Source of the DNA: Aureispira sp. CCB-QB1
GTDB taxonomy: Bacteria > Bacteroidota > Bacteroidia > Chitinophagales > Saprospiraceae
Length of the DNA: 64,000 nucleotides
Reading direction: 5' to 3'
Assembly (NCBI RefSeq): GCF_000724545.1
Contig: NZ_JHBV01000004.1
Location: 62,001-126,000, forward strand
A model generated the notes under the pieces. That model did not search any database. It was given only the letters and a program-made list of their open reading frames with translations, and was not told the DNA's origin. Positions 20,874 through 32,775 of this stretch are shown one piece after another; within the stretch, counting starts at the first letter, position 1, and the number at the start of each line of letters is the position of its first letter. The position numbers and the translations under genes are program-made.

Positions 20874-22208
20874 TTGACTGACGAATTTAAACAAGAGAAA
20901 GCAAGCTTATTTGCATTAATTCAATCTGGAGATGAAAACAACGTAGATATTGCTATTCAAATTATGAAAGGCGATGTTGCTTTGCAGCGAGCTTTTGTTC
21001 AAGATGCTTATATGATTATAGAACAATCGTGGCATTTGAGAACAATCCAAGGCGTTCTGAGGGCTGCGGAAGATACTCCTGCGGCAAAAGCTACTTTAAA
21101 AAAACGCTATGCTTCTTTGCTGCATTTGGTAAGTACATTGACTCATAACAGCAACAAGTTGACAACGCTGGTTTCTGTGGTAGATGCTTTTCAGAGTTAT
21201 TACTTATACAGACCTTCTGGTTGGCAACCAACCGCAAATGACAAGGAAATTATGGCAACACTTCCTGTTCAAACCTTAAATTTGCGAGATCGTTGCTTTA
21301 GTCGTTTACCTGACTGGATGGGTTATTTAACCCAATTAAAAACATTAATCCTCAGTAGAAATGTATTGAAGGTACTGCCCGATTCTATTTGTAATTTGAC
21401 TCGTTTGGAGCATCTAGATTTGCAAGAAAATGTTCTAGAAACATTACCTCAAAATATCGGGAACTTGACGGCTCTAAAAACACTAGAATTGCGGAAGAAT
21501 AGTTTTCAGGTATTGCCCGATTCTATAGGGCAATTAATAGGCTTAGAGGAATTGAGTTTGGAGTACAATCAATTGACCGCTATCCCAGTTTCAATAGGTC
21601 AAATTCAGCGATTGGTAAAACTAGATATTTCGGATAATAATCTTACACATTTACCTGAAGAAATTGGTGCTTTTAGCAATTTGGTTGAATTGGATGCTAG
21701 GAATAATCAGTTGGAAAGTTTGCCTTCAAGTTTGCAACAGTTGACCAAACTCGAAATTTTGTGGTTGTCCAACAATCAACTGGCAGATTTGCCGAATTGG
21801 GTGAGTGCCTTTAAAAAATTGAGAAAATTGCATCTGTCCAACAATCAACTCAAGCATTTACCTTCGGTAATTACGGCTTTATCCAACCTAAAACGCTTGT
21901 ATTTGCACAACAATCACCTTACCACATTACCCGATGATATTGGACAATTATCAAGTTTAAATTATATTGATTTAGATGAAAATAATATTCAGTTGTTGCC
22001 AGAATCGTTAGGGGACTTGATCGCTCTACGAGAAATACGCTTGTTTAATAATCCGATTGAAAAATTACCTGCTCGGTTGATCGAATTGCCAAACTTCAAA
22101 GAAATTGGACTAGGAGATACGCCTATTGGTCGCCAGTATGGAATTGAAGTTGTGCGTGGTCGAAAAGAAGTCGTAACCTTACTACGACAGGTTTCGGTTG
22201 TGTTCTAA
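20874..22208 (+). CDS. leucine-rich repeat protein
   Basis: 444 residues. An N-terminal helical region (about 1-115) is followed by about 11 LRRs of 23 residues (about 130-420) of the form L--L-LS-N-L--LPD-I--L, as in plant-like intracellular bacterial LRR proteins. There is no signal peptide, so it probably acts in the cytoplasm as a protein-binding scaffold. The start is taken as TTG at 20874 because no ATG gives a sensible N-terminus. The next Met in frame would remove about 30 residues of the helical region. It converges with the radical SAM gene at 22255. Function unknown; LRR families are expanded in several Bacteroidota. Confidence 0.85.
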   Translation: MTDEFKQEKASLFALIQSGDENNVDIAIQIMKGDVALQRAFVQDAYMIIEQSWHLRTIQGVLRAAEDTPAAKATLKKRYASLLHLVSTLTHNSNKLTTLVSVVDAFQSYYLYRPSGWQPTANDKEIMATLPVQTLNLRDRCFSRLPDWMGYLTQLKTLILSRNVLKVLPDSICNLTRLEHLDLQENVLETLPQNIGNLTALKTLELRKNSFQVLPDSIGQLIGLEELSLEYNQLTAIPVSIGQIQRLVKLDISDNNLTHLPEEIGAFSNLVELDARNNQLESLPSSLQQLTKLEILWLSNNQLADLPNWVSAFKKLRKLHLSNNQLKHLPSVITALSNLKRLYLHNNHLTTLPDDIGQLSSLNYIDLDENNIQLLPESLGDLIALREIRLFNNPIEKLPARLIELPNFKEIGLGDTPIGRQYGIEVVRGRKEVVTLLRQVSVVF

Positions 22209-22223
22209 TAATAGAATAACTTT

Positions 22224-22255
22224 GTAGCAGCCCACCTAACTATTGAAGAATAGTT
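22224..22255 (-). repeat. interspersed repeat A copy with a small hairpin
   Basis: GTAGCAGC-CA-CTAACTATTGAAG matches the copy at 14675 on the same strand. The sequence AACTATT-GAAG-AATAGTT (22238-22255) forms a hairpin between two convergent genes and might help end both transcripts. The right arm reaches the last base of the radical SAM gene. Confidence 0.5.
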
Positions 22256-23112
22256 TACTCTCGATATGTTGATGGAATTCGTTCAAGAATTCCATCAGCA
22301 TATGTATGATATAGATTCAACTCATCCAAATGCACATAACCAATATGGCAGCCACAAGTTGCATTGATACAAGATTTAGGAGTTAGGCAATCTCTTATTT
22401 CATGTGTATAAATATTTCCTAAGACAGTATCAATAAAATGGCAACTGCGAACATCTCCATTTCCATCTACTGTAAAAGAAGTGTACCCTGCTTGGCAAGA
22501 TTTTCCTAAACTTTGGTGATGCATAGTATTGTAGCGAAACAGTGGGTCTGTTCTTTCGATTCTAAGAATATCTTCTTCTGTATAATAGTTAGGAATTCGT
22601 TTGTAGGCATTGGCCCAAACATAACGATTAGGGTTAATACTCGCTCTCAAGCGTTCCAAAATATCAATATCCTCTTTAAAAGCAACAAAACCAACACTAT
22701 ATTGAATGTTTAAAGCATCTAGTTGTTTGCATTTGTTAACAAATTTTTCTAGGCTAATTTGAGTTGGGTGGAAAGTCGTCCATAAGGCAAAAGAGTCTCT
22801 ATGAACAGCATCCATCCAATTGGTCGTACAAGATAAATTGGTTTGAATACTTACTTTTTTTACGTGTGGTAAATGACTTAGTTCGGTCATTGCCTCTTGG
22901 TAATATTTTCGAATCAAACCTTCTCCCCAAGGAGTAAATAAGATGCTTATTTGTTCCGAACGCCCTTTGACCCACTGGACAAAATTTTGTAAACGTTGCG
23001 CATCATCTGCTAGTTCTGCTCTAGTGTTTTTAGTTTTTGCAAATGGGCAGTAGGTGCACCCATAGTTGCAGCTCGATAGGAGACCACGGTATAAAATCGA
23101 CCAATGATTCAT
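22255..23112 (-). CDS. STM4011 family radical SAM protein
   Basis: 285 residues. The radical SAM cluster cysteines are C15, C19 and C22 in SSCNYGCTYCPF, at the extreme N-terminus. The C-terminal part has further cysteines (SCQAGYTSF, RSCHFID, SCINATCGCHIGY) that look like an auxiliary-cluster or SPASM-like region. Length, motif position and neighbours match the STM4011 family, named after a Salmonella protein of unknown role. It is the last gene of a leftward operon. The 193-base gap to the preceding gene is the longest in the operon and contains repeat B and a (TAA)8 tract touching the ATG. The reaction and substrate are unknown. Confidence 0.85.
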   Translation of the reverse strand: MNHWSILYRGLLSSCNYGCTYCPFAKTKNTRAELADDAQRLQNFVQWVKGRSEQISILFTPWGEGLIRKYYQEAMTELSHLPHVKKVSIQTNLSCTTNWMDAVHRDSFALWTTFHPTQISLEKFVNKCKQLDALNIQYSVGFVAFKEDIDILERLRASINPNRYVWANAYKRIPNYYTEEDILRIERTDPLFRYNTMHHQSLGKSCQAGYTSFTVDGNGDVRSCHFIDTVLGNIYTHEIRDCLTPKSCINATCGCHIGYVHLDELNLYHTYADGILERIPSTYRE

Positions 23113-23137
23113 AATAATAATAATAATAATAATAATT
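23112..23137. repeat. (TAA)8 microsatellite abutting a start codon
   Basis: Eight TAA units at 23112-23135. Read on the minus strand this is ATT repeats whose last unit runs directly into the ATG of the STM4011-type gene, so it occupies the whole ribosome-binding region. Confidence 0.85.
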
Positions 23138-23170
23138 AAGGCAAGAGTTTAGTAAGTAGTCTAATATATA

Positions 23171-23250
23171 TTAAGTAATCGTTCAGAAAAAAAATCTATA
23201 AAAATAAGGCTATTTTTTTGCTATAACTTTTTATGCCCACTTACTTAGAT
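23171..23250 (-). repeat. interspersed repeat B, copy 2 (shortened)
   Basis: On the minus strand it reads CTAAGTAAGTGGGCATAAAAA ... TTATAGCAAAAAAATAGCC and ends CTGAACGATTACTTA. It matches both ends of the copies at 6563 and 62399 but lacks their middle. Confidence 0.55.
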
Positions 23251-23305
23251 AAAAAAGCAGCGTTCGTTTTAATTATAGAACCAAATGTAGGGCTTTTGCT
23301 TAAGA

Positions 23306-24625
23306 TTAAGCCAATTCAAATCCTTGCATCATCGTACAAACTTGATCAGAATACAGCCAAGGACCAATGACATCAGAGAGTTCTAAGCCAGTTTGGTTGA
23401 GTTGCAGTTTATGGTTTTCTTTTGGAGCCAAATTAAGCGCATACAATTCCTGTAACTCTGGCAAATCATCCAAGGCATTGGTTCCAAAAAATTGATAGTA
23501 TGCTGCAAAATCTAAGTGTTGCCCTTCTAAAATGGATTTGATCACATATCGTCGCTGTTGTTCTTCTAAAGAGAGACGAGTGCCATAAAGTACCTTTTGA
23601 AAATCTTCTGTTGTTTTTTCGTTGTAATTATGGATAATATTTTTGATCCCTTTTCGTCCAACAGCATATTCCGAGCTATAATGTAACTTTTTGGTGTAAG
23701 AACGGGCACCAACTCCCAAACCTACCATGCCATCTTCAGGACTATTGTAAGGAGGAGCGGGCATCGTAGGGGCTTTCGTATTTCTAAAAATACGCATGGT
23801 CACTTGTTCGTATCCTTTTGACAATAAAAAATCCCGACCAAAACGATACAAGTTTAAACGGTGATCGTTCCAAGCTTTTTCTTTGAGTCCTAAACCTGTC
23901 AAAGGGCGCACATATAAAGGGTATAAGAAAATTTCCTCAGGCTGAAAAGCAATGCTTTGTTCCAGAGAATATTGCCACGAAGAAAGTGTTTGTCCTGCCA
24001 TCCCGTAAATTAAATCAATATTCATTTCAGGTATTCCCGAATCTTTGATGGTTTGTAGTGCTTGTTGTACTTCAGCCGTTTGTTGTGGGCGACCCAATGC
24101 TTTTGTTTCTTCTAGCAAAAAACTTTGAACACCAATACTAGCTCTAGTAGTCCCTTTTTCTTTTAATAAAGCTAATTTTTCGACACTGGCAGTTTTGGGA
24201 GACATTTCCACAGAACTAGGAATAGAAAGTAGATCTGCTCCCATGATGTCTTCAAGGATAAAAAACAAACGCTCTAAGTCTGTTGTACTCAAAAAGGTAG
24301 GTGTGCCCCCACCAATAGCCAATCGATTAAAATTGGCATCTCCCAAGGCTGCCTTTACTTCTGTAGCTTGGCGTTCTAAGCTTTGTATAAAAGGACTTTC
24401 GTGGGTCTCTTTGGGATTGGCAATAGTGAACAAGTTGCAAAAACCACAACGCATTTCACAAAATGGAACGTGCACATACAAAAAAAGTCGCTCTTTGTTT
24501 TCTTCACTCCAAACCTCCTTTAAAGAAAGTGGATTCTCAAAAGGTCTATAACTAGATTTGTGAGGGTAGGAATAAGCATAACCTTGAAAAAAATTATCAT
24601 TTATGATAGATTGTAATTTTGCCAT
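23306..24625 (-). CDS. STM4012 family radical SAM protein (HemN/HemW-like)
   Basis: 439 residues, related in sequence to the coproporphyrinogen oxidase/HemW branch of radical SAM enzymes. The cluster cysteines are C56, C60 and C63 in VHVPFCEMRCGFCNLF, followed by the GGGTPTFLS and SVEMSPKTAS motifs of this branch. The C-terminal winged-helix-like half is typical of HemW-type proteins. The neighbours (STM4011, 4013, 4014 and 4015 types) place it in the STM4012 family, so it should not be called a haem enzyme. It lies 41 bases after STM4013, same strand. Its chemistry is unknown. Confidence 0.87.
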   Translation of the reverse strand: MAKLQSIINDNFFQGYAYSYPHKSSYRPFENPLSLKEVWSEENKERLFLYVHVPFCEMRCGFCNLFTIANPKETHESPFIQSLERQATEVKAALGDANFNRLAIGGGTPTFLSTTDLERLFFILEDIMGADLLSIPSSVEMSPKTASVEKLALLKEKGTTRASIGVQSFLLEETKALGRPQQTAEVQQALQTIKDSGIPEMNIDLIYGMAGQTLSSWQYSLEQSIAFQPEEIFLYPLYVRPLTGLGLKEKAWNDHRLNLYRFGRDFLLSKGYEQVTMRIFRNTKAPTMPAPPYNSPEDGMVGLGVGARSYTKKLHYSSEYAVGRKGIKNIIHNYNEKTTEDFQKVLYGTRLSLEEQQRRYVIKSILEGQHLDFAAYYQFFGTNALDDLPELQELYALNLAPKENHKLQLNQTGLELSDVIGPWLYSDQVCTMMQGFELA

Positions 24626-24666
24626 TGTGTGGTATGAATATATAGGTGATAATGTCTAATGAAGTA

Positions 24667-25467
24667 TTATTTTTTTAACAAAACCTCTAAGTAAGGAACA
24701 GTCCAAACGTTAGAGTGCCCAATTCGATGCCCTGTGTAGCCGTCTTCTCCATAAGTAGTGCCATGATCCGCAGAACAAATGACAAAACTTTGTTGGCGGC
24801 GTTTATGGAGTGCGTTCATTAATATTGGTAATTGGCTATCTACATATTCCAAAGCAGCCGCATGACTTTCAATGGTGTCTTGCAAGTTATCATCCAAATA
24901 AAAGCAATTGGGCTGATGAATGGCAGAAATATTAATAAATAAGAAAACAGGGCTAGCCGTCTGGTTAAGCAAGTCAGCTGCTTTTTCAAATTGAACTTGC
25001 GTAGAATCCTTGTTGGTTACTCCGAATGATTCTTCCCAATAGCTCTCTTCAAATAAGTCTGGAAAAACATTACTTAATGGAGTTTGTTTGTTGAAAAAGC
25101 CAACGCCACCTATGCAAATCGTCTTAAATCCTTTTTGTTGTAGTCCTTTAACAATATTAGGGGCATCAAAGGTGCAAGTCCCTGCAACAGCCGTTTCGCT
25201 ACCTTCAAATCTTGTTGCAAAAAGACGCGGTTGCTTAGGAGCTTCAATAGGAGTTGGTAAAAAACCAGCAAAAAAGGCATGGTGAGCAGCATAAGTAAAA
25301 CTGCCTGGCGTATGCCGTTGTTCCCAGCCTTTGGGAGAAAGCCACTTAGAAAAATTAGGTAATTTGCCTTGTACCCAAAGCGTTTGAGCAACATCATAGC
25401 GTAGAGTATCTAAAGTTATAAAAACGAGATCACTGTCGGTGATAATTTCGTTCATATTATGCAGCAT
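24667..25467 (-). CDS. STM4013 family alkaline-phosphatase-fold hydrolase
   Basis: 266 residues with the fold of the sulfatase/alkaline phosphatase superfamily. The N-terminal metal-site strand VFITLDTLRYDVA, with T at the nucleophile position, and the C-terminal metal-binding motif SADHGTTYGEDGYTGHRIGH are both present. It is shorter than sulfatases (450 or more) and has no signal peptide, so it acts in the cytoplasm. The family, STM4013/SEN3800, is found only beside the two radical SAM genes here. It could release or transfer a phosphate or sulfate group on the pathway's substrate; that is inference from fold. Confidence 0.83.
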   Translation of the reverse strand: MLHNMNEIITDSDLVFITLDTLRYDVAQTLWVQGKLPNFSKWLSPKGWEQRHTPGSFTYAAHHAFFAGFLPTPIEAPKQPRLFATRFEGSETAVAGTCTFDAPNIVKGLQQKGFKTICIGGVGFFNKQTPLSNVFPDLFEESYWEESFGVTNKDSTQVQFEKAADLLNQTASPVFLFINISAIHQPNCFYLDDNLQDTIESHAAALEYVDSQLPILMNALHKRRQQSFVICSADHGTTYGEDGYTGHRIGHSNVWTVPYLEVLLKK

Positions 25468-25590
25468 GCAGGAAAAATTTTAAGATTAAACTTTGGAAAT
25501 TTATGCCAATGCACATTACTTTATGTGTATTGTACAATTGATTGTTAGTGTACTGTTTTTTAGTAGTAACTAGCGGATAATTAATTGGGT

Positions 25591-26250
25591 TTACAGAGTA
25601 TTAAACTCAAGAATATGCTCTATCGTTATATCTGGTTTTATCTTGTATATCCATTCTCTTTTGTGACTGACCCAAGCCGTTTTGATGCCTACTTTTGCGG
25701 CACCCTTTATATCATTAATAGGATCATCACCTACATATAATAGATGTTGCGGTTCCAGTTTCCATTGTTCTAATATTAATTCAAATAACTGTGTATCTGG
25801 TTTAGATAAATGATATTGTTGAGCAATGTGAATGGTTTCTGTAGAAAAAATAGAATCTAATTGAGCATTGCGAATTTTTCGGCTTTGATTACTGATGGAG
25901 CCATTGGTTAAGATTCCGATTCTATACTGTTGCTTTAACTTGTATAGCAATTCTCTTAAAGCTGGAGTTATTGGTGGCACATAACTACTGATATTAGCGT
26001 GTACATAGTTCCAAAAACTTGTTTCGTCCCAACCTTGAGGCTGGTAATAATGAATGAACCATTCAACGAATTCTTCTCGAGGTGTATATCCAGATTGATC
26101 GACATTTTCTATTTCAAAAGCTTCATTATTGAAATAGTAGTTGGGCATGTTTTCATCAAAAAACTGTTGCATACAAGCCAAAAAAGCAGCATTTCGATCA
26201 ATTAAAGTATTGTCTAGATCAAAGTATATTGTGCTTATCCCATCAAGCAT
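25591..26250 (-). CDS. HAD-superfamily hydrolase (YjjG-like)
   Basis: 219 residues. All four HAD motifs are visible: DLDNT (nucleophile Asp at residue 11, motif I), LTNG (motif II), the Lys of SKPD (motif III) and GDDPINDI (motif IV). A helical cap lies between motifs I and II. Such enzymes are usually small phosphatases of nucleotides or sugar phosphates. The start overlaps the end of the STM4014-type gene by 8 bases, a sign of translational coupling. A HAD gene is not a regular member of the STM4011-4015 set, so it is either an accessory enzyme of this lineage or a replacement part of the pathway. Confidence 0.85.
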   Translation of the reverse strand: MLDGISTIYFDLDNTLIDRNAAFLACMQQFFDENMPNYYFNNEAFEIENVDQSGYTPREEFVEWFIHYYQPQGWDETSFWNYVHANISSYVPPITPALRELLYKLKQQYRIGILTNGSISNQSRKIRNAQLDSIFSTETIHIAQQYHLSKPDTQLFELILEQWKLEPQHLLYVGDDPINDIKGAAKVGIKTAWVSHKREWIYKIKPDITIEHILEFNTL

Positions 26251-27385
26251 ACTCTTTTTCTTTTATATAGTTTATAGTACTTGTGTAGGTATCCATATTG
26301 TTGATCAATACATTGGGTAATAAATCTCCAAATGCATTGGCTTCTAAGATATAACTTTTTTTTAAGGTATTAGAAATCATGACATCCATTCCTGCATAAG
26401 TTGTGTTGGGTAAAGTAGCAACCGCTTTCTCTGCTAAATGGCTCATTTGTTGCCATTTATCGAAGCCAATAATGCGCTTGACTTCTTGAATGCTGCCTCT
26501 CTGATTGCCCAAATGTAAATTGGTCATAGGAGATTGACTTTGTCGCACTACTACTTGTTTGGTTTTCCCACCGATAACAACCATTCTTAAATCAAAGGTG
26601 CCTCCTTCTACAGATGCTTTGGGAATCCATTGTTCAACGAGTATCCCTTCTTTGGCTAAAGTATTGACCAAATAGGCAATTTCTTTAGAGTTGTTGTAGG
26701 TGCGAATTTTTAGTGAATTAAATAATTTGGCAGAAGTGGCATTTTGAACCAGCTCTACAGAAGTAATTGCTTGTACTTTACTTCCTTTAATTCTAAAGGC
26801 AATGACTCCTGATGCAGAAGAACCATGAATCGGTTTGATAAACACGCTTCTCCATTGTTGTTGTCGCATTTGAGTAAGCAAATCATCATAATTTTTAATA
26901 TGGTATAAAGCTGGCGCAACAGTAATGTTATGTTCTACAAAATGTTGGTGACAACTTGTTTTATCAAACATCAGTTGAATGCCTTCAATGCTGTTAATTA
27001 ATTGAACCGTAGGATATAGATCAATTTTTTGTTGCAATTGATTTAGAAAAGTGACAAAACCAAGATGGTGTTGTTTCAAAAACTGTATGCGTCCTTTTTC
27101 AAAAGGCAATTGATCAACAGATTCCAAATCAATAGAATCGGCATTTCTTAAATCAGGATGATGGGCACCTAGCTTTAAAAAAGCACAGTGAACCGCCCAA
27201 TTTTCACCAGGGGATTCAATTCTCAAATAGTTGGTTTGAGCGAGTATAGGATGTAAATCTACCTTTTGTTGTAAAACATCTAAATAAGAGACAACAAAAG
27301 GGGCAGTAAAACCTTGGGATTTTACTGCCTCTATGAAGTATTGACAACGTCTATTTTCAGGATTCCCGATTAGCGTAAATTGCAT
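26243..27385 (-). CDS. STM4014 family ATP-grasp-like protein
   Basis: 380 residues with an ATP-grasp-type layout: an N-terminal domain (about 1-125), the lysine/glycine motif VFIKPIHGSSASGV, a central domain ending in QWIPKASVEGGTFDLRMVVIG, and the metal/ATP-site end ILEANAFGDLLPN. ATP-grasp enzymes join a carboxylate to an amine or thiol through an acyl phosphate, so a peptide or amide ligation step is likely. The substrate is unknown. It is second in the operon, after the LRR protein (17 bases), and overlaps the HAD gene by 8 bases. Confidence 0.82.
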   Translation of the reverse strand: MQFTLIGNPENRRCQYFIEAVKSQGFTAPFVVSYLDVLQQKVDLHPILAQTNYLRIESPGENWAVHCAFLKLGAHHPDLRNADSIDLESVDQLPFEKGRIQFLKQHHLGFVTFLNQLQQKIDLYPTVQLINSIEGIQLMFDKTSCHQHFVEHNITVAPALYHIKNYDDLLTQMRQQQWRSVFIKPIHGSSASGVIAFRIKGSKVQAITSVELVQNATSAKLFNSLKIRTYNNSKEIAYLVNTLAKEGILVEQWIPKASVEGGTFDLRMVVIGGKTKQVVVRQSQSPMTNLHLGNQRGSIQEVKRIIGFDKWQQMSHLAEKAVATLPNTTYAGMDVMISNTLKKSYILEANAFGDLLPNVLINNMDTYTSTINYIKEKEYA

Positions 27386-27402
27386 GTGTATAATGGATCC
27401 AA

Positions 27403-28335
27403 TTACTCTGATACAGAAATATAACGGTCGTCCTCGTCTGCGTCAGGTTCCCTTTCTTTTAGATCTACCTTAATTCCCAAATCTTCTAATTTTTCTGCCC
27501 ATTCATCCGAAATAAAGTTGTGATGCAAATCTAGTTTTTTTAGGTTTTTGATAGCAGGATTATCCACCAATGCTTCTGCACCTCTATCATCAATTATTCC
27601 TCTAGAAAAATCCAATGTCTCAATACGATCTAAAATAGGATCTCCTTTCATGAGTTGAGCCAATTCGTTCGCAATTTCACTATTTCTAAGACCTAGATAT
27701 TTTAGAGAAGGTAGGTGGTTGGTTTTGCCTTCAGCTCCTCGGTAAGCAATTGCAACTTCTTCGGGAGTAGCATTAAAGCCATAATAATCAGAACCTAGCC
27801 ATAATTCTAAATGTTCTAAAGCCGGCAAATTAGCTTTTGATAACTCAGCATAAACAGATTTGTCTAATCCCCCTGTTTGAATGACTAATTTCTTTAAGTT
27901 GGGATGATTGATGTCTCCAAAACTCAAGCCGTTGCCACCACGAACTTGATAAAACTCTAAGTTAGGTAAGGCAGCTAAAAGAGGACCATGATTACAGTTT
28001 TCAATCCAAGAAACTTCATTTTCTTCATAGGTAATGTCTCCTGTAAAGATGCCTTTGATGTGCTGCAATTTATCTTTATTGTCAACCAATAATTGAAGAA
28101 TAGATTTGGGAGAGTCATCGTGCTCAGGTCCCCAATATCCAATGACAAAGCTGTCTATTTCTCCCAGTTTAGGGTCATTCAAAAAAGCGGTTAGCATATT
28201 TTTGACCTCATCTTCTGGACCATCATATTCTGTACGAAAACGATACGCTAAATCTGGATTTTCGATACCTTTTTCTATATCAAAATCCACTACTTTTTTC
28301 TTGTTAAAGTAAAATGCATTTCTTGAAAATGTCAT
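27403..28335 (-). CDS. STM4015 family LRR protein
   Basis: 310 residues, first gene of the operon. The N-terminal third (MTFSRNAFYFNKKKVVDFDIEKG...) is followed by a region of irregular leucine-rich repeats (about 120-290, e.g. LPNLEFYQVRGGNGLSF, HLPSLKYLGLRNSEIANEL, LKKLDLHHNFISDEWAEKL). The end is strongly acidic. No signal peptide. It matches the STM4015 family both in content and in position beside STM4014. It is unrelated in repeat style to the LRR protein at 20874, so their closeness is probably coincidence. Likely a scaffold or binding partner of the pathway's peptide or enzyme; unproven. Confidence 0.82.
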   Translation of the reverse strand: MTFSRNAFYFNKKKVVDFDIEKGIENPDLAYRFRTEYDGPEDEVKNMLTAFLNDPKLGEIDSFVIGYWGPEHDDSPKSILQLLVDNKDKLQHIKGIFTGDITYEENEVSWIENCNHGPLLAALPNLEFYQVRGGNGLSFGDINHPNLKKLVIQTGGLDKSVYAELSKANLPALEHLELWLGSDYYGFNATPEEVAIAYRGAEGKTNHLPSLKYLGLRNSEIANELAQLMKGDPILDRIETLDFSRGIIDDRGAEALVDNPAIKNLKKLDLHHNFISDEWAEKLEDLGIKVDLKEREPDADEDDRYISVSE

Positions 28336-28387: not shown

Positions 28388-28418
28388 CAAATGTATCAAA
28401 AAAGTTATATTAAGTCAA
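28388..28418 (-). promoter_or_regulatory. promoter of the STM4015-4011 operon
   Basis: On the minus strand TTG (28416-28418), a 20-base spacer, then TACATTTG (28388-28395), an exact TAnnTTTG Bacteroidota -7 box. The -7 box ends 52 bases before the ATG of the first gene, a normal leader length. Confidence 0.75.
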
Positions 28419-30123: not shown

Positions 30124-32775
30124 GTGGCAAAACGATATAAATTAGAAAAAAGCGGTGTTTGGATTACTCTTTCGACAAAACCTTTTGCAGGAGGAGGAGA
30201 GGGGAATTTATACAATATAACAGCGCCCAAAGAATTCAGAAAGTATGTTGCCAAGCTGTACCATCCACACAAACTAACGTCCATACGAGAGGAAAAAATT
30301 AATTACTTAGCAACCTATCCCCCAATACAATCCAAAGAGAATGCAGGAGCGCACAATTCGGTTATTTGGGTTAAAGATGCTTTGTACGATAAAAAAAAGT
30401 TTGTAGGTTTTATAATGCCCTACACCGAGGGAGAAAAATTAGAAATACTTTGTACTCCTAAGATACCTCGAAAATTGCGGCAAGAGTGGAAGCGTTTTGA
30501 CTTTAAACAATCGCCCAAAGCTTTGGAAATGCGCTTGAAATTATCCTTTAATATCTGTGCTGCTATTCATCAAGTGCATTCTATAGAACGCTATGTTTTG
30601 GTAGATATGAAACCTGATAACATCGTTATTCAAACGAATGGTTTGGTTTCTATTGTGGATACCGATTCGGTAGAGGTAGTAGAGTCAGGCAAAAGTCTGT
30701 TTGATGCTCCTGTCGCCACGCCAGAATATACACCCCCTGAGCATTATAAATTATTGGATTATGATGCCACAGAAAGAGAAGCATGGGATCGATTTGGGTT
30801 GGGAGTAATTTTATATAAATTGCTTTTTGGGATTCATCCTTTTGCAGCAAGTTCTGGCGCACCTTATGAGCAATTAACAACCTTGCACGACAAAATTAAG
30901 CATGGCTTATTTGTCCATCATCCTGCTAAAAAGTCTTCGTTTAAAATCATTCCACCTCCACATAAGGCTTTTTACAAATTAGATCAAAGCTTGCAAGACT
31001 TGTTTTTCCGTTGTTTTGTTGATGGGCATGAGAATCCAGAAATGCGTCCTAGTGCAGAGGAGTGGTGCGCTGCTATTTTGTTGTCTTTGGACGATGAAAC
31101 GGCTTACAAGCGCTATGGGCATATTTTAGGAGGAGGTTTTTATGCTTCCAAACCAAGATTTCCTTTGCCTTCTTCGAGAATCGATGTGCCTGGATATGCA
31201 ACACCAGCAGCGAAACTAGTGGAGTTGCATAAAAATAATAGATTGCCCAATCCTAAAGTGCGAACTCCTCAGCAACATGAATTGAAAGATTTTCAAGTGC
31301 AGAGCCTTAAAAAAGGAGAAAAGATAGCATTTATGATTGCGATTGTAATGATTTCAATTATTACAACTCCTTTTGGAGGGTTTCTATTTTGTTTTTATTT
31401 GTTGCATCGAACTAAGAAAAATTTCAAAACGGATGGTGCTTTTCGTCAGGCACAACGCATCAAGGAGAATTTAGCGCAAGTACAACGTAAATACTATCGA
31501 CAAAATCTGCGATTGCGTCAAAGTCGGAAAAAATTTAAGAAAAGTGTGCGTTGGGTTATTCCTAAGATAGAGCGTTTGGTAGAAGAGGTCAAAACAAAAA
31601 TAGAGGGTTTAAAAACTTATTTAAAAGAAAAAGATACCCAAGTAAAGGAATTAGAACAAAAAGCATTAGAGCAGTATCATTATTTAAATGAAAAATATGT
31701 CTCTAAAGCCAAAGAACATCGTGCCATTGCTCGAGTAGACGATGGACATTATAATAATTTGGCTAAAATTAGAATCGCTATTCATAATGCGCACAAAAAG
31801 GCAGTCGATGAATTGGTGAAGGATCAACCTATTCAAGAGAATCATCCTTTTATGAAAGAAGGAAAAATAGCTGTGGATAATTTGGTAAAGGATAAGAAGT
31901 TGAAAATTAGTGATTTGATTGGCGCTAAATTAACGGCTTTGTACAATGAACAAGAGGCAAAAATAAAATTATTGTATCAAGACATTCGGGAAGATACTTT
32001 TATTGAAAATCATTGGTCTCGATTGTGGAAAGGCAAACGAAATGTTGCAGAAGGGGTTAAGGATGAATTGAAAGAAGAATTTGAAGAACTTAAGCTATCT
32101 TCTATTTTGCAAATTTATAACATCAATTCTAGGACAGGTGAAATAACACTCAAAAATGGTCAGAAATTTAATATTAAATATTTTAGAGATTCTAAATTGA
32201 TTTTAAATAATTTGAAGCATTGGCATGATGAAACGAAGCATCAGTTGAGCATCTTAGACCAAGAAAAAGCGCTTTTGAAAAAAGAGTACCGACAAAAGGT
32301 AAAAGCTTTGGAAGAAAAAAAACGAATAGAGTTAAAAAACTTAGATCGTTTTAAACGGGGTGAGTTAGAAAAAGTGAAAATTGAAACTCAAAAGATCGTG
32401 TTGGGACAGCCCTTTGCCAATCTACAAGAGCAATATGAAACGGTTACTGAATATGTGACCGAATTGGAGACAGCTTATGAACAAGAAGAGGAAGAGGTGT
32501 TAAAAGATTATAAGGCTTTGTATGAGTCTATTATCAAAGATTGTGAATATAGAGCGGATAAAGTTACTAGAGATATAAAGGATTTGGAAGCTAAATTGCA
32601 TACTTATAATAAGAAGAGCAAACACCCCAAAGTTCAAAAAGCTTATCGAGAACTAGAGCAGGATTTAAAAGAATTAAAACAAATAATCCCTGAATATAAG
32701 ACCAAGGCATTTGAGATGAAGAAATATGAGCAGATCACGTTTAAAAATTACTTGCGCAAATTGCTTCGAGAGTAA
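30124..32775 (+). CDS. membrane-anchored kinase-like protein with long coiled coil
   Basis: 883 residues from a GTG start. The N-terminal 320 residues have a Ser/Thr kinase fold: glycine loop FAGGGEGN (21-28), lysine VAK (K44), catalytic loop LVDMKPDN (D161, K163, N166), metal-site VDTDS where DFG is expected (D179 or D181), and TPEYTPPE as the APE region. The HRD histidine and arginine are replaced by LV, and DFG by DTD. This variant set is typical of the COG4248 kinase-like group. A membrane helix follows (about 401-428), then about 430 residues of charged heptad-type helix, a coiled coil. Substrates are unknown. Whether it is an active kinase cannot be read from sequence, but the key Asp and Lys remain. 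Confidence 0.82.
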   Translation: MAKRYKLEKSGVWITLSTKPFAGGGEGNLYNITAPKEFRKYVAKLYHPHKLTSIREEKINYLATYPPIQSKENAGAHNSVIWVKDALYDKKKFVGFIMPYTEGEKLEILCTPKIPRKLRQEWKRFDFKQSPKALEMRLKLSFNICAAIHQVHSIERYVLVDMKPDNIVIQTNGLVSIVDTDSVEVVESGKSLFDAPVATPEYTPPEHYKLLDYDATEREAWDRFGLGVILYKLLFGIHPFAASSGAPYEQLTTLHDKIKHGLFVHHPAKKSSFKIIPPPHKAFYKLDQSLQDLFFRCFVDGHENPEMRPSAEEWCAAILLSLDDETAYKRYGHILGGGFYASKPRFPLPSSRIDVPGYATPAAKLVELHKNNRLPNPKVRTPQQHELKDFQVQSLKKGEKIAFMIAIVMISIITTPFGGFLFCFYLLHRTKKNFKTDGAFRQAQRIKENLAQVQRKYYRQNLRLRQSRKKFKKSVRWVIPKIERLVEEVKTKIEGLKTYLKEKDTQVKELEQKALEQYHYLNEKYVSKAKEHRAIARVDDGHYNNLAKIRIAIHNAHKKAVDELVKDQPIQENHPFMKEGKIAVDNLVKDKKLKISDLIGAKLTALYNEQEAKIKLLYQDIREDTFIENHWSRLWKGKRNVAEGVKDELKEEFEELKLSSILQIYNINSRTGEITLKNGQKFNIKYFRDSKLILNNLKHWHDETKHQLSILDQEKALLKKEYRQKVKALEEKKRIELKNLDRFKRGELEKVKIETQKIVLGQPFANLQEQYETVTEYVTELETAYEQEEEEVLKDYKALYESIIKDCEYRADKVTRDIKDLEAKLHTYNKKSKHPKVQKAYRELEQDLKELKQIIPEYKTKAFEMKKYEQITFKNYLRKLLRE

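Follow-up and report, generated by a model that had tools for sequence, protein, structure and literature searches.

Six intact leftward genes lie at 22255-28335 of the stretch analysed here, the window, which comprises 64,000 nucleotides of Aureispira sp. CCB-QB1 (contig NZ_JHBV01000004.1, positions 62,001 to 126,000 of the forward strand). A preliminary description of this DNA had taken them for an STM4011-4015-type operon encoding two radical S-adenosylmethionine (SAM) enzymes, a leucine-rich repeat (LRR) protein, an ATP-grasp protein, an alkaline-phosphatase-fold enzyme and an added HAD phosphatase. The six open reading frames (ORFs) are present as described and their families were correctly named: five pass the curated cut-offs of their NCBIfam models, and the sixth, assigned with Pfam, is a HAD gene. 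Here we describe a conserved C-terminal tail on the LRR protein and consider whether the ATP-grasp enzyme of the cassette acts on it. The features in question are the following, with scores in bits.

27403-28335, minus strand: STM4015-family LRR protein, 310 residues, the proposed substrate or carrier (NF038076, 296 against a cut-off of 275; solved homologue 2ra8).
27403-27432, minus strand: codons of the C-terminal DDRYISVSE and the stop, with the terminal Glu310 as the proposed attachment site, judged from homologue conservation.
26243-27385, minus strand: STM4014-family ATP-grasp ligase, 380 residues (NF038074, 372 against 175).
25591-26250, minus strand: HAD-IA phosphatase, 219 residues, overlapping the STM4014 gene by 8 bases (PF13419; HAD-IA models).
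24667-25467, minus strand: STM4013-family alkaline-phosphatase-superfamily hydrolase or phosphotransferase, 266 residues (NF038075, 391 against 250).
23306-24625, minus strand: STM4012-family HemN-like radical SAM enzyme with C56-x3-C60-x2-C63 (NF006067, 566 against 380).
22255-23112, minus strand: STM4011-family radical SAM enzyme with SPASM-like C-terminal cysteines (NF038073, 375 against 200).
28388-28418, minus strand: promoter-like TTG-N20-TACATTTG upstream of STM4015 (pattern scan; near chance frequency).

By ORF coordinates, the gaps amount to 17 bases between STM4015 and STM4014, -8 between STM4014 and the HAD gene (the overlap, at 26243-26250, is as first reported), 123 between the HAD gene and STM4013, 41 between STM4013 and STM4012, and 193 between STM4012 and STM4011. 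Because no terminator-like site is reported within these gaps (the whole stretch holds 4, with 4.2 expected), one transcript across all six genes is possible. As to the "one good promoter" ascribed to the operon, a match to TTG-N20-TACATTTG, which we take to be the Bacteroidota-type promoter consensus, is found at 28418-28388, but such matches occur at near-chance frequency (the minus strand of the window has 3, and mononucleotide shuffles give 1.9 on average). Sigma-70-type matches are likewise near chance (33 against 24.5, standard deviation 4.8).

STM4015 proteins end in a variable acidic linker, typically followed by R-[YF]-x-x-V-x-Glu and the stop codon. We compared 117 ORFs scoring above 100 bits, drawn from the window, locus L003, five plasmid loci and genome loci (L and G numbers denote our loci and genomes), after removal of own-genome duplicates (L001, L002, L006) and exclusion of two weaker matches, one with the end Glu and one, L028, without. 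Some of their starts are over-extended, which leaves the C terminus unaffected. The terminal Glu is present in 113 of the 117, a Tyr or Phe at -6 in 111 and a Val at -3 in 100; most copies have S, G, A, T or Y at -2, and 94 of the 113 tails carry a net of at least three acidic residues at -22 to -8. That these counts are an artefact of a tail-containing profile is ruled out, since a profile cut before the tail recovers the identical 117 ORFs, again 113 with terminal Glu. Of the 15 best conserved columns of the family, only that of Glu310 holds a charged residue, the others being Leu, Gly, Ser and Pro. A terminal Glu is found in 57 of 976 other ORFs from the same loci (a mechanical pick over 88 loci that includes false ORFs in GC-rich genomes), and in the cassette partners in 2 of 88 STM4013, 0 of 76 STM4014, 4 of 74 STM4011 and 0 of 75 STM4012 proteins. 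The tail ends are encoded with either Glu codon and any of the three stop codons, so selection acts on the protein.

The four ORFs that lack the terminal Glu are paralogues (L025, L033, L040, L053), and each of their loci also has intact copies. The tail-less LRR gene of L028 lies in a genome that holds a full, tail-bearing STM4015 elsewhere (L158). In the 13 genomes behind loci with an incomplete cassette, the terminal Glu is found in 11 of 12 STM4015-like ORFs, some of which repeat copies of the first set. The solved homologue from Bacteroides fragilis, 2ra8, reads YPMITE at residues 349-354 of 362, and its last eight residues may be a tag. Adjoining the operon in the window is a convergent gene (20874-22208) for an ordinary LRR protein, which has no STM4015-family match and no tail, ending in LLRQVSVVF.

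Additional copies of STM4015 are common and for the most part retain the tail. At least two STM4015 genes occur in 28 of 80 cassette loci, which are the best 80 of 576 matches by similarity to STM4013 and, being chosen in this way, lean towards owners of an STM4013 close to that of the window. Among 98 actinomycete genomes, ten hold 21 copies between them, seven of the ten having at least two; all 21 keep the terminal Glu, and at least one of them is shared with the first set. Of six copies remote from the enzymes, five keep the tail (L147, L148, L149 and two of three in L151). In G396 the distance is about 100 kb, in G394 and G360, which are fragmented assemblies, such copies are on other contigs, and a Calothrix genome holds three copies about 4 Mb from L025, two of them with the tail. 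The tail is not confined to LRR proteins in one instance: in L016, a pentapeptide-repeat protein adjoining two STM4015 genes ends in EIGEHRYELVGE, the same kind of tail. Its relatives in the loci examined amount to one weak match, without the tail. That many other proteins are tagged in this way is not supported by a strict DNA tail-pattern scan of 28 genomes, a pattern too narrow to catch the L016 protein, which gave 34 matches against 7 for the reversed pattern. Of the 30 matches examined, 23 are STM4015 C termini, one ends a 41-codon STM4015-like remnant (L114), and six end no listed ORF of at least 40 codons.

What kind of enzyme might act on such an end? In STM4014, K142, K184, D334, E348 and N350 are invariant in 58 of 58 homologues and, on our reading, correspond to the Lys, Lys, Asp and ExN positions of ATP-grasp enzymes (PMC4431377). 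The predicted structure is confident (predicted local distance difference test score 96.1). The top three Foldseek rows for this model are ArgX, two of them complexed with LysW, followed by D-Ala ligases, PsnB and RimK; MdnC is also among the matches. With VIA-align, rows 1-9 are ArgX, LysX and RimK (Z 24.1-22.1 over 265-277 residues, root-mean-square deviation 2.7-3.2), the best being ArgX bound to LysW. Thus, STM4014 is narrowly nearest to ArgX/LysX and RimK in predicted structure. The C-terminal Glu of LysW is the attachment point in that system, and its replacement by Ala in a haloarchaeon yields an arginine auxotroph (PMC10433800); RimK adds glutamates to the C terminus of RpsF (PMC10092738).

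We propose that the cassette modifies the C terminus of its own LRR protein, STM4014 ligating a group to the terminal Glu of STM4015 and the other enzymes processing that group, a reading to which we give a probability of about one half. The core of the case is that the tail and the ligase fold, found independently, indicate the same reaction. We envision a scenario whereby STM4014 would activate a carboxylate of the nearly invariant Glu as an acyl phosphate and join an amine-bearing group to it, much as LysW is extended by ArgX and LysX, or ribosomal S6 by RimK. Once attached, the group might be remodelled by the SPASM-like STM4011 and the HemN-like STM4012, and phosphate might be added to it or removed from it by STM4013 and the HAD protein; our sole commitment on the radical SAM and phosphate enzymes is that they would act after ligation. 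Gene identities, the conservation of cassette and tail, that of the presumed active-site residues and the predicted fold are observed; the ligation, the ligated group, the order of steps and the retention of the product on the protein are what we infer from them. Several STM4015 copies are found in many loci and genomes, some of them remote from the enzymes, which favours the modified LRR protein as the final product over a role as transient carrier. A more specific version, which we put forward tentatively, would be a new kind of protein-borne group: STM4014 would couple an amino acid or an amine to the terminal Glu, and the two radical SAM and two phosphate enzymes would convert it into something resembling a cofactor or warhead that remains on the protein, with LRR paralogues, and once a pentapeptide-repeat protein, as alternative bearers of the tail.

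The LRR protein had been described as a scaffold, and is more likely a substrate or carrier because its own C terminus carries a conserved, substrate-like tail. That no precursor peptide gene is visible holds for ORFs of at least 60 residues, but is probably beside the point, since the LRR protein itself brings the tail. Conceivably, STM4015 could instead be a large precursor in the manner of ribosomally synthesised and post-translationally modified peptides (RiPPs). The tail would in that case serve as the core peptide, undergo changes within its own residues and perhaps be cleaved to yield a small product: the aromatic residue at -6 might be modified, STM4014 might form a macrolactone or amide, or STM4011 and STM4012 might form C-C bonds. 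This strongest rival, which we nevertheless consider unlikely, would account for a short conserved C-terminal motif behind a variable linker, for loci with two or more STM4015 copies and for the graspetide ligases PsnB and MdnC among the structural matches of STM4014. It also agrees with the SPASM-like cysteines of STM4011 (C206, C224, C248, C253 and C255, present in 74 of 74 homologues) and with SkfB as its best solved match. STM4011 resembles the C-terminal part of SkfB and an anaerobic sulfatase maturase, and its three radical SAM cysteines (C15, C19 and C22) are likewise present in 74 of 74. Against the RiPP-like precursor speaks that the tail has no constant reactive side chain other than the terminal Glu, position -2 being variable and the aromatic residue sometimes Phe, and that the two commonest identified neighbour clusters are HAD and DUF6745 genes rather than proteases or exporters, although few other clusters are annotated and L007 and L008 do have adjoining transport genes.

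Several observations weigh against C-terminal ligation to the LRR protein. Glutathione synthetase (Z 21.9) is tied with the ninth VIA-align row of STM4014, closely followed by D-cycloserine synthetase (21.2), inositol phosphate kinases (21.0) and D-Ala ligases (20.9); fold similarity alone leaves the acceptor unfixed, and other acceptors remain compatible with the model. By sequence, STM4014 falls far below the cut-offs for LysX (TIGR02144, 16 against 276 bits) and RimK (TIGR00768, 28 against 143 bits). Neither a co-substrate nor its supply is evident. One L151 paralogue and the weaker LRR match in G317 (L167) have lost the tail, and the pentapeptide-repeat protein of L016 is a single case at a metagenome contig edge, a lead only. 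Four genomes (G422-G425) own STM4013 yet match neither STM4014 nor STM4015, and the tail might instead signal docking or degradation. The last two points lead to a further alternative, in which the tail is a recognition handle only, for docking, degradation or localisation, and the enzymes make a free small molecule that the LRR protein senses or binds. C-terminal motifs can serve as binding peptides and LRR domains commonly bind partners, and the four genomes with STM4013 but neither STM4014 nor STM4015 show that a subset of the cassette can function in the absence of the LRR protein. We regard such a handle as improbable, the most conserved residue of the tail being the last Glu, which co-occurs with a ligase whose top structural relatives act on a C-terminal Glu.

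The HAD protein is intact and carries the strings DLDNT, TNG, KP and GDD at what we take to be HAD-motif-like places. The preliminary description rightly counted it as a member, but it is not a local addition, a reading we reject: a relative of the window HAD, as found with a single phmmer query that distant HADs escape, is present in 28 of the 80 loci, and in 27 of them directly 5' of STM4013. According to their records, these loci include Bacteroidota, Pseudomonadota, Myxococcota, Verrucomicrobiota, Planctomycetota, Desulfobacterota and Lentisphaerota. In the Salmonella record, an annotated Cof-type HAD-IIB gene follows STM4011 and overlaps it, and in Bacteroides finegoldii STM4011 (residues 12-291) is fused to a HAD-IIB-like domain (about residues 298-496; Cof model 70 bits, cut-off 137). 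No relatives of these two HAD-IIB proteins were found in the other loci examined. The joining of different HAD classes to the same cassette suggests that a dephosphorylation step is part of the pathway.

The second presumed phosphate enzyme, STM4013, has D20, T58, D234 and H235 invariant in 52 of 52 homologues. Its model first matches EptC-type phosphoethanolamine transferases, with sulfatases also among the matches, and a sequence comparison with solved structures puts nucleotide pyrophosphatases and sulfatases first. Because Thr58 occupies what we presume, from the motifs of the superfamily, to be the nucleophile position, where sulfatases have the Cys or Ser that yields formylglycine, STM4013 is probably a phosphate enzyme rather than a sulfatase. 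It shares this Thr with EptC/MCR-type transferases but, at 266 residues, matches their soluble part only. STM4013 also occurs in other settings. It is the sole cassette family in L069, L092, L065 and L088, whose genomes lack STM4014 and STM4015; on a Streptomyces albidoflavus plasmid (L013:4875-8324), it stands in another cluster with MoaA-like radical SAM, dTMP-kinase-like and NUDIX genes; and the Ti plasmid pTi-SAKURA (L011:7001-7864) has a distant STM4013-like gene (107 bits), the other cassette genes being absent from that stretch.

Might the six genes be ordinary enzymes brought together by chance, with STM4012 serving the haem pathway? STM4012, in which the three radical SAM cysteines are present in 74 of 74 homologues, is indeed HemN-like: its best solved matches are HemN (1olt being the best) and the radical SAM methyltransferase NocN, and it scores 142 bits with TIGR00538. 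It remains below the cut-offs of both haem-enzyme models (325 for TIGR00538; 138 against 205 for TIGR00539) and, among the models listed, passes that of its own family only. The genome encodes separate HemN (435 against 325) and HemW (287 against 205) proteins elsewhere, and we therefore reject the haem-enzyme reading of STM4012. A chance neighbourhood is contradicted both by these separate enzymes and by the joint occurrence of all five STM4011-4015 families in 60 of the 80 loci, spread over many phyla, and we consider it very improbable.

The view of the operon as one conserved modification or biosynthetic cassette is supported, the genes being conserved together and the phosphate enzymes recurring with them. 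Of the 20 loci without the full five families, 12 are near a contig edge and eight are not. In the actinomycete sample, STM4011, STM4014 and STM4015 pass their cut-offs in the identical ten genomes (at E 0.001 the STM4014 model matches 43 of the 98, mostly weak general ATP-grasp proteins), and in the 13 genomes behind incomplete loci STM4014 and STM4015 match in the identical nine, with four STM4015 and eight STM4014 over the cut-off; sampled genomes may duplicate species already among the loci. Among 296 Bacteroidota genomes, the STM4015 cut-off is passed by the window's own protein alone, one match lies just below it (273.6) and is adjoined by STM4014, STM4011 and STM4012 (L003), and two genomes have partial LRR matches. 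The Bacteroides finegoldii plasmid copy, with STM4015, STM4014 and STM4011 only, might be taken for a minimal cassette; we reject this, since between STM4014 and STM4011 it has short ORFs similar to the beginning of STM4013 and to the final part of STM4012 (L155:8998-9364) and so looks decayed.

Other genes accompany the cassette in places. A DUF6745-type gene is near at least 17 loci, 15 of them among the 80 (examples are L007, L009, L034 and L049), mostly in actinomycetes and Chloroflexota; the count is a lower bound, as the clustering missed an annotated copy in L012. An APS-kinase-like gene shares bases with STM4014 in L027 and adjoins the cassette on the opposite strand in L044; it groups with genes of L003, L042 and L056 and with an ORF beside the cassette in L015 (749-1519) that combines APS-kinase-like and nucleotidyltransferase-like domains. 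The evidence for its regular membership is suggestive only. The record L058, labelled Comamonas sp., has a Myxococcus-like cassette in a genome of 9.0 Mb and is possibly mislabelled. A known anti-phage defence system is not indicated, the six proteins giving two weak matches only against PADLOC-DB 2.0.0 (STM4012 33.5 and STM4011 21 bits). Elsewhere in the window, 30124-32775 encodes an 883-residue protein with an N-terminal protein-kinase domain, weakly similar to PD-T4-6 defence kinases.

How does the cassette compare with described systems? It shares with Salmonella all five families over cut-off and the order 4015-4014-4013-4012-4011, the window having a HAD-IA gene between STM4014 and STM4013 where the Salmonella record has a HAD-IIB gene after STM4011. 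With LysW and LysX/ArgX it has in common a tail that ends in Glu and a ligase of the same ATP-grasp fold, but here the tail belongs to an LRR protein of about 300 residues (310 in the window, ending in DDRYISVSE), whereas LysW is a small zinc protein ending in EDWGE; moreover, no LysZ/LysY/LysJ/LysK-type gene is found among the nine window genes scanned, which include two radical SAM enzymes instead. Judged by its carrier type and the ligase family score, the cassette is not a member of the LysW pathway, but it may work in a similar way. RimK is likewise an ATP-grasp ligase that extends a protein C terminus, with a tied structural score (PMC10092738); here, the substrate protein is distinct and encoded in the cassette, and additional radical and phosphate chemistry is proposed. 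The graspetide ligases PsnB and MdnC are ATP-grasp enzymes crystallised with their precursor peptide, yet the window has no short precursor peptide among ORFs of at least 60 residues, and the tail has no constant nucleophile.

Four of the five NCBIfam models (NF038073-NF038076, NF006067) are typed hypothetical or subfamily, without a function. Among 5.39 million open papers, two name any of the five Salmonella genes, each a single time and in a table, and the family names searched are absent; an iron-stimulon paper (PMC10434189) is unrelated to the cassette. This literature, which excludes most subscription papers and all bioRxiv preprints, yielded nothing on the function of the cassette and no mention of the tail or of any connection with C-terminal ligation. 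What was known are thus family names without function, and what is new is the conserved C-terminal Glu tail of the LRR protein. The cassette is found across many bacterial phyla, including Salmonella and gut Bacteroides, with its function still unassigned, and a nearly invariant terminal Glu together with a ligase of the C-terminal-Glu type would offer a first testable job for this long-known set of genes. If the proposal is true, a repeat protein would join the few known cases of C-terminal ligation as carrier or bearer, and would be tied to radical chemistry.

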